Source: Bugulina stolonifera (lineage: Eukaryota; Bryozoa; Gymnolaemata; Cheilostomatida; Bugulidae). Taken from it: a DNA stretch of 64,000 nucleotides. A model generated the notes under the pieces. That model ran no database searches, was not told the DNA's origin, and saw only the letters and a program-made list of their open reading frames with translations. The stretch spans positions 13,103,072 through 13,167,071 of the forward strand of contig OW285189.1 in the NCBI GenBank assembly GCA_935421135.1, written 5' to 3'. Shown piece by piece: positions 9,689-15,708 of the stretch. The first letter of the stretch is position 1. Each line of letters begins with the position of its first letter. A program made the translations under genes and the position numbers.

Positions 9689-10476
9689 ACAGAAAACACG
9701 GCACTTCTTTTTCTTCTGGCTTTTCCCATCAGGTGGGGTCGTCATTACGGATCAGTTTTCTCCATCAAACCCTGTCTTGTGCGTCTTCTTCTACCAGTCC
9801 TGCTGTTGCCATATCATCTTTCAAACAGTCTTTCCATCTTCTTTTGGGGCGCCCTCTCTTTTGCTTTCCGACCTCCAGTTGTCTTATTCTTTTTCCCACA
9901 TACTCTTCATCTCTTCTCAACACGTGTCTCAGCCACCTCAATCTTATCTCCCTCATTTCACTTCTTAGTTCACCAACTTTCACTCGTTTCCTAATATCCT
10001 CATTTCTTATTCGGTCAATTTTTGTTAGTCCCAATGGCCATCTCAGCATTCTCATCTCCGCCACTTGAAATTTCTCCTCTTGTGCTTTTGTCACCACTAC
10101 TGTCTCCATTCCATACAGCATTGCTGGTCTCACCATGGTCATATACAGCTTCCCTTTGACTCGATCTGGCACCTTCCTATCACACATTACCCCTGTAATA
10201 TTCTTCCATACACCCCAACCTGCCTGAGTTCTTTTCACGACCTCCCTGTGAGATCCATCAGCTTGTACAGTCGCCACCACTGGCCTGGCTTGTCGCCTGG
10301 GAGTAGGACCTCGTCTGTTGCAAAGCTGTGTGAATCCCGGCCATAGAACAGGACCAACGTATCATCTGCGTGTCGTAGAAGCCGACTAATAGAGGTTGGT
10401 GGCAGGAAAGGCATCTGACCGTAAAAAAACCGCTTGCCGAACAAACATGCGGACAATGAACAGAAAACACGGGCAC
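9689..10476 (-). mobile_element. 5'-truncated RTE-like LINE with target duplication
   Basis: The flanks 9689-9704 (ACAGAAAACACGGCAC) and 10460-10476 (same with one extra G) form a target site duplication. The minus strand between them reads the end of a LINE ORF: RRTQAGWGVWKNITGVMCD region, then RVKGKLYMTMVRPAMLYGMET, RLRWLRHVLRRDE and KRGRPKRRWKDC. This is the standard C-terminal reverse-transcriptase tail of RTE-like elements. One in-frame TGA breaks the tail near 9764. The 5' part (10240-10456) holds a GGCAGGAAAGGCATCTGACCG module often shared by SINEs and LINEs. The copy lacks the catalytic reverse transcriptase core and is inactive. Confidence 0.75.
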
Positions 10477-10753: not shown

Positions 10754-10817
10754 TGTTTTTATATGTTAGAAGAAATACAGTATAATGCATATGTTATTCT
10801 TTTTGAGCTATAGAGAT

Positions 10818-11015
10818 TGTATTGGGAGCTAGGTAAGAGGGCTAAGGCAAAGGGGATAGGTAAGATTATAAGGATAGCTTGAAGATAGCTGAGATATAGC
10901 TGGAGACCTAAGGAGAAGGGGACACTTTATGGTTGAGAGTGAATGAGAGAGGTAGAGGAGGCAGACTAACAGTGCAGGCGAAGGATATATTAAACTTGTG
11001 AGTACAGACATTACA
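10818..11015 (+). repeat. 5' LTR
   Basis: 198 bp, starting TGTATTGGG and ending CATTACA (TG...CA ends). It matches the 3' LTR except for two transitions and a missing 6 bp (GACTTT). The LTR is short for a Ty3/gypsy element. No clear TATA box or AATAAA was found. Confidence 0.95.
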
Positions 11016-11031
11016 TGGTGTCAGAAGTGGG
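11016..11031 (+). promoter_or_regulatory. Primer binding site for reverse transcription
   Basis: TGGTGTCAGAAGTGGG begins at the first base after the 5' LTR. TGG is the complement of a tRNA CCA end, and the word is the type used by many gypsy elements. A tRNA-Leu primer is my recollection and not checked. Confidence 0.8.
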
Positions 11032-11180
11032 ATTATTGGATAATACACAGGTTACAGTAGAACACAGTAAGGTGGGGTAAGTTATAGATCTGTACCTAGA
11101 CAAGTCATAGGCCTGATAGGAAATTTTTTCCAGTCTTTAATTCAAATTCAGGTAAAGGGTTAAGTTCAGGTAATATAGAC

Positions 11181-12206
11181 ATGGCTACAAGAGGAGATAA
11201 ACATAGTGCAAGGGATGGGTTATCAGTAGAGGATTGGCAGAAGTTTATCAAACGTTTTGAGATACAAATGGCATTTCATGACTTCAAGACAACTGGGGCA
11301 GCGGATGAACCAGCCAAGGTAGCTATAATAGAACACAAGAAGGGCTGTATGCTACTTGATAGATTAGGGGAACAGGGGTTTGAGATATACAATGAATGGA
11401 ATATAGCGGTTAATGAAGTAAGGTACACAGACATCAAACAACGATTTGATGAACACTTTAAGGGGAAGGGGCATGCGGTTAGGAACATGGATAGCTTTTT
11501 CACTTGCAGGCAAAGGGAGGATGAGGATTTCACGGGGTACATCGCTAGGCTTAGTACGATAGCTAAAGGGTGCGAGCTAGGGGCACTAGAAAATAAATTA
11601 ATTCTGCATAGGGCTTTAGCGGGGACTACAAACGACGCAGTTAGGGTACAAGTGTTGAATGAAATGGCAAAAGGGGATGGGGGAATAGACTATGGGGCAA
11701 TGATAAAGCTAGGAAAGGACATTGAAACAGCCATGAAGAATGCGGATTACATGAGGAATCCGGGTACGAGCCAAAATGATCCAAAGGAGGAGTGGGTAGG
11801 CACTCATAGGGAGGGACAAGGGCTTAGGCGCAGAGAGGACGAGAGACCCCAAGCAGGCTCTCCACCCAGACCACAAAGACAACCCTTTAGGAGGGTTAGC
11901 CCAAAAAGGAGTCCGGACATGACATGCTACAATTGTGGGAAGCTAGGGCACTTCACTAGGGAATGTAGAAAAAAGGGGAACGACGCCTGTTTCAAATGTG
12001 GGGGTAGAGGACATTACGCTAGAGAATGCAGGGAGTCTCAGAGAACTAAACAGGGGCAGGATAAAACAAAGTATATGGGGTCTCCAGGAAGGGAGTTAAG
12101 ATGCTACAAGTGTGAGGGCAAATGGCACATGTCACGGGAATGTCCTTCAAAAATCCCTAGGGCTAGGGAAGTAAGGGAAGAGGACAGTGATTCAGAATCG
12201 GTATGA
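11181..12206 (+). CDS. gag: Gag polyprotein with three CCHC zinc knuckles
   Basis: 341 residues. The N-terminal two thirds (WQKFIKRFEIQM, then YNEWNIAVNEVRY, then a gag-like FTGYIARLSTIAKGCE) resemble the capsid region of metazoan Ty3/gypsy Gag, which builds the particle. A basic, proline-rich linker leads to three nucleocapsid knuckles of the form CX2CX4HX4C, starting at residues 249, 270 and 308 (CYNCGKLGHF, CFKCGGRGHY, CYKCEGKWHM), which bind the element RNA. Three knuckles are more than the usual one or two. The frame ends with an acidic tail and a UGA at 12204-12206. The next codons continue in the same frame into pol. The ATG at 11181 is the start that precedes the first capsid-like residues. 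Confidence 0.93.
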   Translation: MATRGDKHSARDGLSVEDWQKFIKRFEIQMAFHDFKTTGAADEPAKVAIIEHKKGCMLLDRLGEQGFEIYNEWNIAVNEVRYTDIKQRFDEHFKGKGHAVRNMDSFFTCRQREDEDFTGYIARLSTIAKGCELGALENKLILHRALAGTTNDAVRVQVLNEMAKGDGGIDYGAMIKLGKDIETAMKNADYMRNPGTSQNDPKEEWVGTHREGQGLRRREDERPQAGSPPRPQRQPFRRVSPKRSPDMTCYNCGKLGHFTRECRKKGNDACFKCGGRGHYARECRESQRTKQGQDKTKYMGSPGRELRCYKCEGKWHMSRECPSKIPRAREVREEDSDSESV

Positions 12207-12212
12207 CTATTC
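12204..12212 (+). promoter_or_regulatory. Candidate leaky stop between gag and pol (UGA CUA)
   Basis: The gag stop is UGA followed directly by CUA UUC. Downstream codons stay open in the same frame into protease, and pol has no ATG of its own near its beginning. UGA followed by CUA is a known readthrough context, used for example by alphavirus polyproteins and some animal mRNAs. Readthrough would give a low ratio of Gag-Pol to Gag. This is inferred from context only. Confidence 0.65.
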
Positions 12213-14522
12213 GTGGGAAAATGTGGGACTGATATTAAGGACGATGATGAATTCGAACATGATTTACAGGTAAATGAAAAAATAATAAGGTTTTTGGATG
12301 ACACAGGTGCTGACATATCTGTACTAACAGTAGGGTCAGCGAAAAGTTTAGGGTTGAGACTAGAGAATTCAAAGAAGAAGGTGAGGGGAGCAGGAAATAA
12401 TAAGCTGAAGGTAGTAGGAGAGGTAGAAGTAGAATTGAGGAATGGGAGTAAGGCAGTTAAAACAAAAGTTTTTGTTATTGAAGGGGCTACCAGGAATCTA
12501 GTTGGTAGGAAGGAAATTAGGAAGTTGAATTTGCTGGCAGAAGTGAATAGGATCACACAGAGGGATGTAGAGAAAGGATTTCCATCACTTTTTAAGGGCT
12601 TGGGTAAGATGCCGGTAAAATATAAAATTGATTTGAAGGAAGGGGCAAGGCCGTTTCGTTTGGATGTCCCTCGCAAGGTGGCAGCGGGACTAGAGGAACA
12701 GGTTAAGGCGGAACTAGATAGAATGGTAAGGGAGGGAGTTATTACTCAAGTAGACAGGCCAACAGACTGGTGTGCAGGGCTAGTTTGTGCTCCAAAGAAA
12801 AATGGGAAGGTTAGGTTGTGTGTGGACCTGTCACAGCTAAATAAACATGTGAGAAGAGACGTGTTCCCGTTGCCCAACACAGATGTGACATTAGCAAAAC
12901 TAGCCAAATCAAGGGTTTTCAGTAAAATGGATGCCAATTCAGGGTTTTGGCAAACGGAATTGGAGGAGAAATCGAGGGAATTTACAACATTCATAACACC
13001 CTTTGGAAGATATTACTTTAATAGGCTGCCGTTTGGGATATCGTCGGCACCAGCGTTTTACCAGCGACAGGTATTGAGGGTATTGGAGGGGTTGCAAGGT
13101 GTGATATGTCAAATGGATGACATTTTGGTTCATGGTAAGGATGCTAGGGAACACGATGAAAGGCTTAGGGCAGTACTGAGTAGGCTAAGAGAGGCGGGAA
13201 AAACACTTAATAAGGAAAAATGTGAGTTTGGGGTGGAGAAAGTGAAATTTCTGGGACACATAATAGATGGGATGGGAATACATGCAGACCCAGAAAAAGT
13301 AGAGGCTATACACCGGCTACCACAGCCGAAAAATGTCAAAGAGGTGAAAAGCTTTCTGGGGATGGTAGGATACTTGGGGAGATTCAGTGATAGGCTGTCA
13401 GAATTATTGAAACCACTGAGGGAGTTGTTGAAAAAGAGAAATAGCTTTGTGTGGGGAGAGGCACAACAGAAAGCTTTCCAGGGAATTAAGGAACATGTGG
13501 CAGAGGCTCCAGTATTAGCAAAATTTGACCTAAACAAAAAAACAAAAGTAACAGCTGACACCAGCTCATTTGGGTTAGGGGGAGCATTACTGCAGTGGGA
13601 AGATGGTTCATGGAAACCAATAGCATACGCATCAAGGGCGATGTCAGATACAGAGGGTAGGTATGCTCAGATCGAGAAAGAGGCATTAGCATTGGTGTGG
13701 GCTTGTGAAAAGTTTGAATACTATTTGGTGGGTAGGGAATTTCTACTTGAAACAGATAACAGGTTATTGGTAGAATTACTAGGGGAAGCTGATCTAGCGC
13801 AGCTGCCATTGCGGGTTCAACGGTTCAAACTAAGGATGATGAGGTTCCGATATAGGGTGATACACACACCGGGTAGTGAAATGTACATAGCCGACCGCTT
13901 ATCTAGAAAACCGGTAAGGGGGTTTTCTGAACGGGACAGAAAACTAGAACTCCGAACCACGGCTCACATTAGGTATTTAGTGGAGGGTACTGCTTTACTA
14001 GGTAAGGAACTAGAGGACTTGAGGGTTGAGACACAAAGGGACCAAACATTGCAAGAGGTAATGAAGTACATGGGAGAGGGGTGGCCTAAGAGTCACAATA
14101 TGAGGGGGGAAGTAAAACAGTTTTTCTTGGTTCGTGAAGCCCTATCACAGTACAACGGGTTAATATTAAAAGGTGATCAGATAGTCATACCCAGGGGAGT
14201 GAGGAGTAAAACCTTAGATAAGATACATGAGGGTCACCAAGGGGAGGAAAAGTGCAAGAGGAGGGCCTCAGAGTCAGTGTGGTGGCCAGGGATATTACCA
14301 GAGATAAGGGAGAAAGTGAAAAAATGTGAAATATGTGCAAAGAATAGGAAGTTGGTTAACCAACCGCTAAGGGTATCAGGATTACCAGGGGGACCATGGG
14401 AGGAATTGGGAGCAGACCTGTTTCAGTTTGAAGGGGTAAACTTTATTGTGGTAGTCGATTATTATTCCAGATGGATTGAGGTAATGGGAATAGGGGGGGC
14501 AAACTGCGGGAGAGGTAGTTGA
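12207..14522 (+). CDS. pol: Pol, first part: protease, reverse transcriptase, RNase H, integrase N-terminus
   Basis: In frame with gag after its UGA. The aspartic protease site reads FLDDTGADISVL with DTG at 12300-12308. The reverse transcriptase has the LCVDLSQLN block, FSKMDANSGFWQ with the first catalytic Asp, LPFGISSAPAFYQR, and the active site QMDD (near 13110) where many relatives have YxDD. RNase H follows (TADTSSFGLGGALLQ, KEALALVWACEKF, ETDNRLL, ADRLSR). The integrase zinc domain shows HEGH then CEIC, followed by the first catalytic Asp in LGADLF. The frame runs to a stop at 14520-14522 because of a one-base change in a run of seven G at 14493-14499; integrase coding continues in the next frame. 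No ATG near the beginning fits an independent start. Confidence 0.93.
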   Translation, partial: LFVGKCGTDIKDDDEFEHDLQVNEKIIRFLDDTGADISVLTVGSAKSLGLRLENSKKKVRGAGNNKLKVVGEVEVELRNGSKAVKTKVFVIEGATRNLVGRKEIRKLNLLAEVNRITQRDVEKGFPSLFKGLGKMPVKYKIDLKEGARPFRLDVPRKVAAGLEEQVKAELDRMVREGVITQVDRPTDWCAGLVCAPKKNGKVRLCVDLSQLNKHVRRDVFPLPNTDVTLAKLAKSRVFSKMDANSGFWQTELEEKSREFTTFITPFGRYYFNRLPFGISSAPAFYQRQVLRVLEGLQGVICQMDDILVHGKDAREHDERLRAVLSRLREAGKTLNKEKCEFGVEKVKFLGHIIDGMGIHADPEKVEAIHRLPQPKNVKEVKSFLGMVGYLGRFSDRLSELLKPLRELLKKRNSFVWGEAQQKAFQGIKEHVAEAPVLAKFDLNKKTKVTADTSSFGLGGALLQWEDGSWKPIAYASRAMSDTEGRYAQIEKEALALVWACEKFEYYLVGREFLLETDNRLLVELLGEADLAQLPLRVQRFKLRMMRFRYRVIHTPGSEMYIADRLSRKPVRGFSERDRKLELRTTAHIRYLVEGTALLGKELEDLRVETQRDQTLQEVMKYMGEGWPKSHNMRGEVKQFFLVREALSQYNGLILKGDQIVIPRGVRSKTLDKIHEGHQGEEKCKRRASESVWWPGILPEIREKVKKCEICAKNRKLVNQPLRVSGLPGGPWEELGADLFQFEGVNFIVVVDYYSRWIEVMGIGGANCGRGS

Positions 14523-15363
14523 AAAGTTAAAGATAATGTTTGCTAGTTTTGGGCATCCAATACGGTTAAGGACAGACAATGGCCCCTGTTTTAGCTCTAG
14601 GGAGTTTAGGGGTTATACAGAGCAAGTGGGAATTGCGCATGAAACCAGTAGTCCACTATATCCGCAGAGCAATGGGGCAGCGGAAAGGGCGGTGCAAACT
14701 GTTAAGGGGCTGTGGAGAAAAAACCAGGACAGGGTAGGAGCATTGGCTGTGTATAGGGACACACCGTTGGAGTCGGGTTATAGCCCAGCCCAACTGCTGT
14801 TTGGAAGGTCGATAAGGGTGGGTCTGTCAAGGATAGCCCAGAGGGAAGTCGACCATGAGAAGTTTAGAGCTAAAGATAAGGGACTGAAACTGAGGATGGA
14901 GGCAAATTATAATGATAGGAAGAGGGTAAGAAACTTGGGTGATTTGGCAGTAGGTGATAAAGTCTGGGTAAAAACTTCTAATCAGGATTATGGACGGGAG
15001 GCTAGGGTAATTGGCAGGGCCGAGGAACCGGACAGTTATTTAGTGCGAGTAGATGGAGCAGTTGTTAGGAGAAATAGAAAACACTTAGTACTAATGCCAG
15101 TAAGTGACAGTGAGACAGAAGGTGGCTCTGAAACAGAAAGTGATTTAGAAGTAGAGGAAAACCAGGAAGGGGAAGAAGTGAATATAGAACCAGAGCAGGG
15201 TGTTAGGATCAGGGGTAAGTCCATAGCAGAACGACATGAAGTTGCTCAAGGGACAGACAGACAAAATGAACCAAGGGAGCAGAGACCGGCCGGAGTAGTG
15301 ACAAGATCAGGGAGGGTGAGTAGGCCCAACCCTAAGTACAGTGACTGCATAGTATATAAATGA
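14500..15363 (+). pseudogene. pol: Pol, second part: integrase core and C-terminus, frame-shifted from the first part
   Basis: After the G run the integrase continues in a different frame. The second catalytic Asp lies in RTDNGPCF and the Glu in SNGAAERAV, completing the DDE triad with the Asp of the preceding part. Downstream, LAVGDKVWVK and YLVRVDGAVVRRNRKHLV form the GPY/F-like module near the integrase C-terminus, followed by an acidic, Glu-rich tail ending at the stop at 15361-15363. No chromodomain was recognised. The shift may be a real disabling mutation or a homopolymer sequencing error. Both parts otherwise look intact, which favours a very recent change. Confidence 0.85.
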
Positions 15364-15476
15364 AATCAAAGTGGGTATGGGGCTAAGGAAAGAAGAATAA
15401 AGGGGCCGGGGTAAGCAAAGGTAGTTACCGGAATGCAAAATATACATAAACACTAGGTAACTCGCCGCAACAATAG

Positions 15477-15499
15477 AAAAGGGGAAAAAGAAAGGAGAA
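15477..15499 (+). promoter_or_regulatory. Polypurine tract
   Basis: A 23-base run of only A and G (AAAAGGGGAAAAAGAAAGG then AGAA) ends exactly at the first base of the 3' LTR, as expected for the plus-strand primer of an LTR retrotransposon. Confidence 0.88.
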
Positions 15500-15703
15500 T
15501 GTATTGGGAGCTAGGTAAGAGGGCTAAGGCAAAGGAGATAGGTAAGATTATAAGGATAGCTTGAAGATAGCTGAGATATAGCTGGAGACTTAAGGAGAAG
15601 GGGACACTTTGACTTTATGGTTGAGAGTGAATGAGAGAGGTAGAGGAGGCAGACTAACAGTGCAGGCGAAGGATATATTAAACTTGTGAGTACAGACATT
15701 ACA
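15500..15703 (+). repeat. 3' LTR
   Basis: 204 bp, same ends as the 5' LTR. It differs by two transitions and a 6 bp insertion that makes ACTTTGACTTT where the 5' copy has ACTTT, probably a short tandem duplication. Confidence 0.95.
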
Positions 15704-15708
15704 GAGAT

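Follow-up and report, generated by a model that had tools for sequence, protein, structure and literature searches.

The question raised by this locus is how a retrotransposon in which gag closes with a UGA, and in which pol continues directly behind that stop without any change of frame, comes to produce a Gag-Pol polyprotein. The element in question is a Ty3/gypsy long terminal repeat (LTR) element that occupies positions 10818-15703 (+ strand) of a 64,000-nt stretch of the Bugulina stolonifera assembly GCA_935421135.1 (contig OW285189.1, positions 13,103,072 to 13,167,071 of the forward strand), and this whole stretch is referred to here as the window. A sequence-only reading of the window had proposed that the lineage controls its ratio of Gag to Gag-Pol by UGA readthrough. 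Based on the comparison of further copies, related families and relatives in other hosts, we put the probability at about 0.9 that an animal Ty3/gypsy clade makes its Gag-Pol by programmed UGA-CUA readthrough, and both the conservation of the junction and its frame support the proposal that the ratio would be set in this way.

The gag open reading frame (ORF; 11181-12206, + strand, 341 aa) ends with TGA at 12204-12206, which is followed by CTA at 12207-12209 and then by TTC. Pol follows in the frame of gag, which stays open between 12207 and 14522 (771 codons, + strand), and encodes a protease with the active-site DTG at 12300-12308, the reverse transcriptase (RT), RNase H and the zinc-binding domain of the integrase. 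The TGA is the sole stop in this frame between 11181 and 14519, and both alternative frames are closed at 12000-12400, in which they contain 11 and 17 stops. Pol at -1 or +1, the arrangement expected for a frameshift, was not found, as gag and pol share their frame. The earliest in-frame AUG lies 134 codons beyond the UGA, 3' of the protease DTG. These coordinates and ORFs agree with the sequence-only reading, which had described a gag UGA followed by CUA UUC, one frame into the DTG protease and no nearby ATG for pol; the single frame holds only up to 14522, however, and the description must be corrected in that the window copy has a pol frame that is interrupted within the integrase. The gag frame has a Pfam zinc knuckle (PF00098, E 1.6e-15), with its motifs at 11925-12143, two stretches of which were recognised by Pfam and a third by eye. 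In most of the families with a detectable motif, the zinc knuckles sit in the pol frame as well, the exceptions being the frame-damaged loci L057 and L068.

The 235-Mb assembly (27 contigs) was searched using positions 11900-12600 as the DNA query. Among the 35 matches, 30 were taken as loci and aligned using MAFFT, two more were read (L138 and L139) and three stop short of the junction. TGA CTA was present in all 30 of the aligned junctions, even though pairwise DNA identity was as low as 80%, and also in the two further ones, while a sense codon was found at none of the 32. The UGA is thus not a private mutation, which was the alternative under which most copies would have a sense codon, and UGA-CUA is kept in the other copies of the family, which was the check proposed with the sequence-only reading. 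Outside the junction many of the copies have decayed, and long gag and pol frames survive only in some of them. When changes relative to the window copy were sorted by codon position, third positions formed the largest class in both gag and pol in all six of the copies compared (L026, L028, L029, L030, L003 and L018), for example in 24/37 of the gag changes and 33/47 of the pol changes of L026. This excess on both sides of the UGA, strong in most of the copies, signifies that both stretches have been under protein constraint in one frame.

The weight of the argument is carried by a census of stops in related families, which did not presuppose the motif. In an RT protein search, 150 of 726 candidate places were scored and 22 rows were counted as the window family. 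From the 128 rows outside it, 118 were fetched, and the remaining 10, unread rows with 48-51% identity, most likely belong, by their score, to fused families. In-frame stops were then counted in the RT frame, 300-798 nt upstream of the RT. Exactly one stop was found in 75 of the 118 loci, and it was TGA CTA in all 75, which are spread over nine sequence clusters. A further four loci had two in-frame stops, with TGA CTA among them in each case, 22, which are decayed or lack a junction, had at least three, and 17 had none; the latter are fused gag-pol families, the RT of which is 48-51% identical to that of the window. The identity of the UGA loci to the window RT ranged from 50% (L150) to 65%. 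Five still more distant loci were also read, and four of them were fused, while the fifth (L156) was rejected because it is no element junction. The presence of TGA CTA at the single-stop junctions exceeds chance. A genome-wide scan for the pattern TGACTAKWNGWN gave 5851 matches compared to 7324 in the reversed control, which indicates that the pattern alone is not enriched.

When the window family was included, the hexamer TGACTA was found at the expected place in 122 of the 150 loci, which a cut-off of 75% identity over 120 nt sorted into 14 clusters (the clusters of L109 and L150 were read across 500 nt only). It was retained despite nearby frame damage in L096, L101 and L102. In the representatives, aligned on the hexamer without gaps, none of the 72 flanking columns between -30 and +47 was invariant; the invariance of the hexamer itself in this line-up is by construction because the loci were chosen for TGACTA. 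Directly after the hexamer, 68 of the 122 loci have G and the other 54 have T, while the codons preceding the stop varied over the 14 representatives (GTA, GAA, TTA, AGC, CAA, AGT, CTC, CTA and TCA). Since CTA accounts for only 87 of the 479 downstream leucine codons (18%), the fixed CTA after the stop is not a matter of codon habit. The families, which are otherwise much diverged, retain UGA-CUA plus G or U, and if this signal sets their Gag to Gag-Pol ratio they show in a natural setting which of its bases are important. One family with the UGA (L036, L077-L090 and L092) looks to have spread recently, as identity across the 360 nt at the junction reaches 99% or more in 78 of its 120 copy pairs. 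Its near-identical copies, the pol frames of which are long and open, were observed on many chromosomes, and open pol frames of 1104 aa were counted in 11 rows of the RT search.

According to the proposed mechanism, the UGA at 12204 would be a functional leaky terminator at which the majority of ribosomes would halt and release Gag. In a minority of ribosomes, a near-cognate tRNA would decode the UGA owing to the CUA and the G or U behind it, and translation would proceed in the same frame to give Gag-Pol, so that the leakiness at this codon would fix the ratio of the two products. The putative signal (UGA-CUA at 12204-12209, + strand), which was delimited by conservation across copies and related loci, would mainly be the short linear UGA-CUA-K, in which K is G or U, and not a conserved downstream RNA structure, and the Ty3/gypsy families that form a clade in this genome would have inherited it from their ancestor. 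This short context (UGA, then CUA, then G or U) is found in the window and at the related junctions. That UGA-CUA is a recognised leaky context, as the sequence-only reading had stated, is borne out in the accessible passages of two reporter studies: feature selection using human reporters led to UGA CUA, with UGA CUA G and UGA CUA T both showing high readthrough (PMC4359377), and CUA after UGA was sufficient in the tpi1 reporters of Ustilago (PMC4207609). Moreover, the AQP4 context showed 3.9% readthrough in a reporter study, as far as its accessible text shows (PMC12233894). We infer that readthrough occurs, which type of tRNA it uses and that it affects particle assembly, and by analogy its rate may be up to a few per cent.

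A stem or pseudoknot in the 100 bases after the stop, which had been considered as a possible stimulator, was not supported by minimum-free-energy folding. The mean z-scores of the 14 representatives 3' of the stop were +0.05 (60 nt), -0.48 (100 nt) and -0.34 (150 nt), and that of the window copy was +0.87. The 100 nt before the stop had a mean of -0.60 and thus fold no worse than the 3' side; a downstream stem as the stimulator was rejected on these values. Individual loci were outlying (L047, -3.3; L040, -2.4), but the set as a whole was unremarkable. By minimum free energy, then, no conserved fold 3' of the UGA was found in the 14 representatives and the window copy, and no Rfam family, including the selenocysteine insertion sequence (SECIS), reached the cut-off within the window.

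The arrangement resembles that of the gammaretrovirus murine leukaemia virus (MuLV), in which gag and pol also stand in one frame and are divided by a single leaky stop. Tca2 of Candida albicans, another element to which the junction can be compared, belongs to the Ty1/copia group. It likewise has an in-frame UGA between gag and pol, but, in the passages available, differs in having a purine-rich 3' context and in that no readthrough was seen when the 300 nt surrounding its stop were placed in baker's yeast (PMC2194720). MuLV, as described in the same source, relies on UAG, a purine-rich spacer and a pseudoknot (PMC2194720), whereas here the stop is UGA followed by CUA, no conserved fold was found and the UAG of the gammaretrovirus type is absent from the window junction. 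An almost identical signal is used by the fission-yeast elements Tj1, Tosmo1-3 and Tcry1, in which TGA and then CTA or CTG stand in frame between gag and pol (PMC10085805); the pol of Tj1 has no AUG of its own, and removing the gag-pol stop of Tj1 abolishes transposition (PMC4600332). Because these Ty3/gypsy elements use UGA-CUR, according to the passages seen of both papers, the background statement that readthrough is typical of gammaretroviruses stands only in part, since it is not confined to them. The fission-yeast elements are fungal chromodomain elements (Tf1/sushi) with a conserved GAA before the stop (PMC10085805, PMC4600332), unlike the elements studied here, in which no chromodomain was found, the preceding codon varies, CTA is present in all 75 single-stop loci and the host is an animal. 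In the case of the human genes LDHB, MDH1 and AQP4, the same six-base core is used, often with G as the next base, and UGA CUA T of CACNA2D4 is also high, in the parts of the reports available (PMC4359377, PMC4207609, PMC12233894). In these genes readthrough gives alternative C-termini of host proteins, whereas here it would link the structural polyprotein of a retroelement to the enzymatic one, so that the same six bases would set the ratio of Gag to Gag-Pol. Animal Ty3/gypsy elements have been described as using either a frameshift or one continuous frame; the passage of PMC5009743 that summarises the 2003 survey by Gao is silent on readthrough. Passages of PMC5009743, PMC3587641, PMC2577118, PMC8556966 and PMC6875170 carry no mention of readthrough in animal Ty3/gypsy elements, nor does PMC12471100 by keyword. 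Literature searches on gag-pol readthrough and in-frame stops in retroelements, judged by the titles and opening lines of abstracts among the top 20-30 entries of each and with subscription papers poorly covered, turned up the fission-yeast elements and Tca2 but no recognisable animal Ty3/gypsy clade, and an earlier mention may exist.

Several observations weigh against programmed readthrough or limit what the junctions can prove. The families share ancestry and are hence not independent events. Two of the 14 hexamer clusters (L035 and L047) consist of single decayed copies, and the decayed L133, which is the only one of the 28 hexamer-less loci to align across the junction, reads TGAGTA. The ungapped line-up makes the flanks appear less alike than they are, which leaves the stop census as the check that is free of selection by motif. 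The third-position excess was weak in the gag of L029 (19/43) and the pol of L030 (24/46). Additionally, readthrough at UGA CUA G varies more than 15-fold between human contexts (PMC12233894, accessible text), and higher readthrough may require additional downstream sequence (passages of PMC4207609); the bare motif therefore does not fix the level.

A further objection is that the hexamer may have been kept by common descent alone, without selection. Within the window family, 58 of the 696 six-base windows are invariant as well, because of which the within-family conservation is weak evidence by itself. This view is nevertheless highly improbable, as TGA CTA persists between clusters that are less than 75% identical over 120 nt and the ungapped line-up has not one invariant column in the flanks. 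Somewhat better placed, though still improbable, is the view that the UGA is an inherited lesion or the plain end of gag and that pol is translated from a separate start, using internal ribosome entry, reinitiation or a pol-only RNA. The DTG can be read in 12 representatives, and in three of them an in-frame AUG precedes it (L034, L045, in which the second DTG was taken as catalytic, and L109), which counts against readthrough, and the junction of Candida Tca2, for which readthrough was not seen in baker's yeast, had promoter activity in the passages available (PMC2194720). There is no such AUG in the other nine representatives (L035 and L047 were too damaged to judge), and in the window element the first one lies beyond the DTG; moreover, a separate start would leave both the TGA CTA of 75/75 single-stop loci and the shared frame unexplained.

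The stop could also be removed from some transcripts by an intron, giving a gag-pol fusion mRNA, and the stop of the window family does overlap GTATGA, which is passable as a 5' splice site. We regard this as very improbable since, for a splice site at the stop itself, the three bases ahead of it vary among the 14 representatives and a fixed CUA is not predicted by splicing. Least probable of all, to the point of being barely credible, is that the UGA is decoded as sense, either as selenocysteine or by a change in the host code. It would fit the finding that single-stop junctions are always UGA and never UAG or UAA (75/75), but no SECIS or other Rfam family was detected at cut-off in the window and no further in-frame UGA occurs within the 771-codon pol frame before its end. 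Readthrough of UGA-CUA is thus preferred to each of these explanations.

Relatives in other hosts were sought using the pol protein; 7984 candidates were scored, 2512 proteins reached an E value of 1e-20 or better, and the best 120 of these 2512 were used. The resulting RT tree had 144 rows, i.e., 17 UGA rows, 7 fused rows from this genome and the 120 external proteins. A set of 60 rows (support 96/89) contained all 17 UGA rows, 41 external pol-only rows and two fused ones, P0110 and L060, the latter on a long branch and of unsure placement. The other set, of 84 rows, consisted of 75 fused, 8 pol-only and 1 unassigned; P0059, annotated as K02A2.6-like [Pecten maximus], was placed in this fused clade. 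Thus, among the best 120 of 2512, the clade took in 42 external proteins, of which 41 were pol-only, defined as having no zinc-knuckle motif before the RT and at most 350 residues there, while gag was in the same protein in 69 of 78 outside it. The pol-only proteins would fit a stop before the protease, and a frameshift or a cut contig would fit them too. Scans of viral contig and genome contig collections using the RT alignment found no relatives.

On balance, this distribution slightly favours the view that a deep clade of animal Ty3/gypsy elements, with many host species, gained UGA-CUA-K readthrough once and has since relied on the seven bases alone, with no stimulatory RNA structure conserved beside them, while in its sister clade gag and pol form one ORF. 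Two points count against it and against the readthrough reading itself. The junction codons all come from one genome, relatives elsewhere being known as proteins only, and P0110, an external protein inside the clade, has Arg (..SSLRLN..) at the position of the stop as judged by eye, which means that either a fused form exists or the P0110 copy is mutated. If the view is true, annotators would gain a marker, as the pols of this clade would be without gag owing to a real stop and not to decay. P0110 may also be a case in which the leaky stop was lost in a different host.

The window element is a Ty3/gypsy LTR retrotransposon in its LTRs, target-site duplication, primer-site-like stretch and polypurine run. 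All of its parts lie on the + strand. The 5' LTR (10818-11015, 198 bp) has the ends TGTATTGG...ACATTACA and is directly abutted by TGGTGTCAGAAGTGGGA at 11016-11032, which resembles a primer-binding site by position and sequence. The polypurine run at 15475-15499 lies upstream of the 3' LTR (15500-15703, 204 bp), and the element is flanked by the target-site duplication GAGAT (unstranded), with the same letters at 10813-10817 and 15704-15708. Across the 198 aligned bases of the LTR pair there are two substitutions, to which a single 6-nt indel is added, and with the 5-bp duplication intact this bears out the description of the element as young. In the alignment the indel appears as an insertion at 15606-15611 of the 3' LTR relative to the 5' LTR that repeats the adjoining ACTTT. 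The domain order according to Pfam (gag zinc knuckle, protease, RT, RNase H, integrase) is as expected for Ty3/gypsy. The integrase frame is broken at 14494-14536, where the pol frame stops at 14522 and the integrase core resumes in another frame (remaining integrase, 14494-15363), and the whole Pol therefore cannot be made from the window copy. Pfam had no match, and so no chromodomain, for the final part of pol in the window copy or for the relative P0001.

In the adjacent region, a 198-codon open frame at 9765-10361 (- strand) had no Pfam match, and we take it to resemble the end of a reverse transcriptase from a non-LTR retrotransposon. Elsewhere in the assembly, RT matches of equal score were observed at C9:1775336/1828047 and C9:1762852/1815562, both pairs being spaced by about 52.7 kb, and at C10:2783341, 2835425, 2867291 and 2909654, four copies with one inner TAG each; these may be signs of segmental duplications that copied old elements. 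Contig C27 (L151; 14,440 bp) looks like an animal mitochondrial genome, the cytb frame of which shifts once, possibly through an assembly error. Its COX2 has one match at 90% identity; among hits with a species name, the cheilostome bryozoan Bugula neritina comes first at 70%, ahead of the bryozoans Parantropora, Cupuladria and Exechonella at 59-61%. Provided that C27 and the chromosomes come from one animal, a cheilostome bryozoan is thus the probable host. Contig C12 (L152; 21.7 kb), the first 6 kb of which have 20% GC and long ORFs, looks like a protist mitochondrial genome and suggests that a symbiont or a food organism is present in the assembly.

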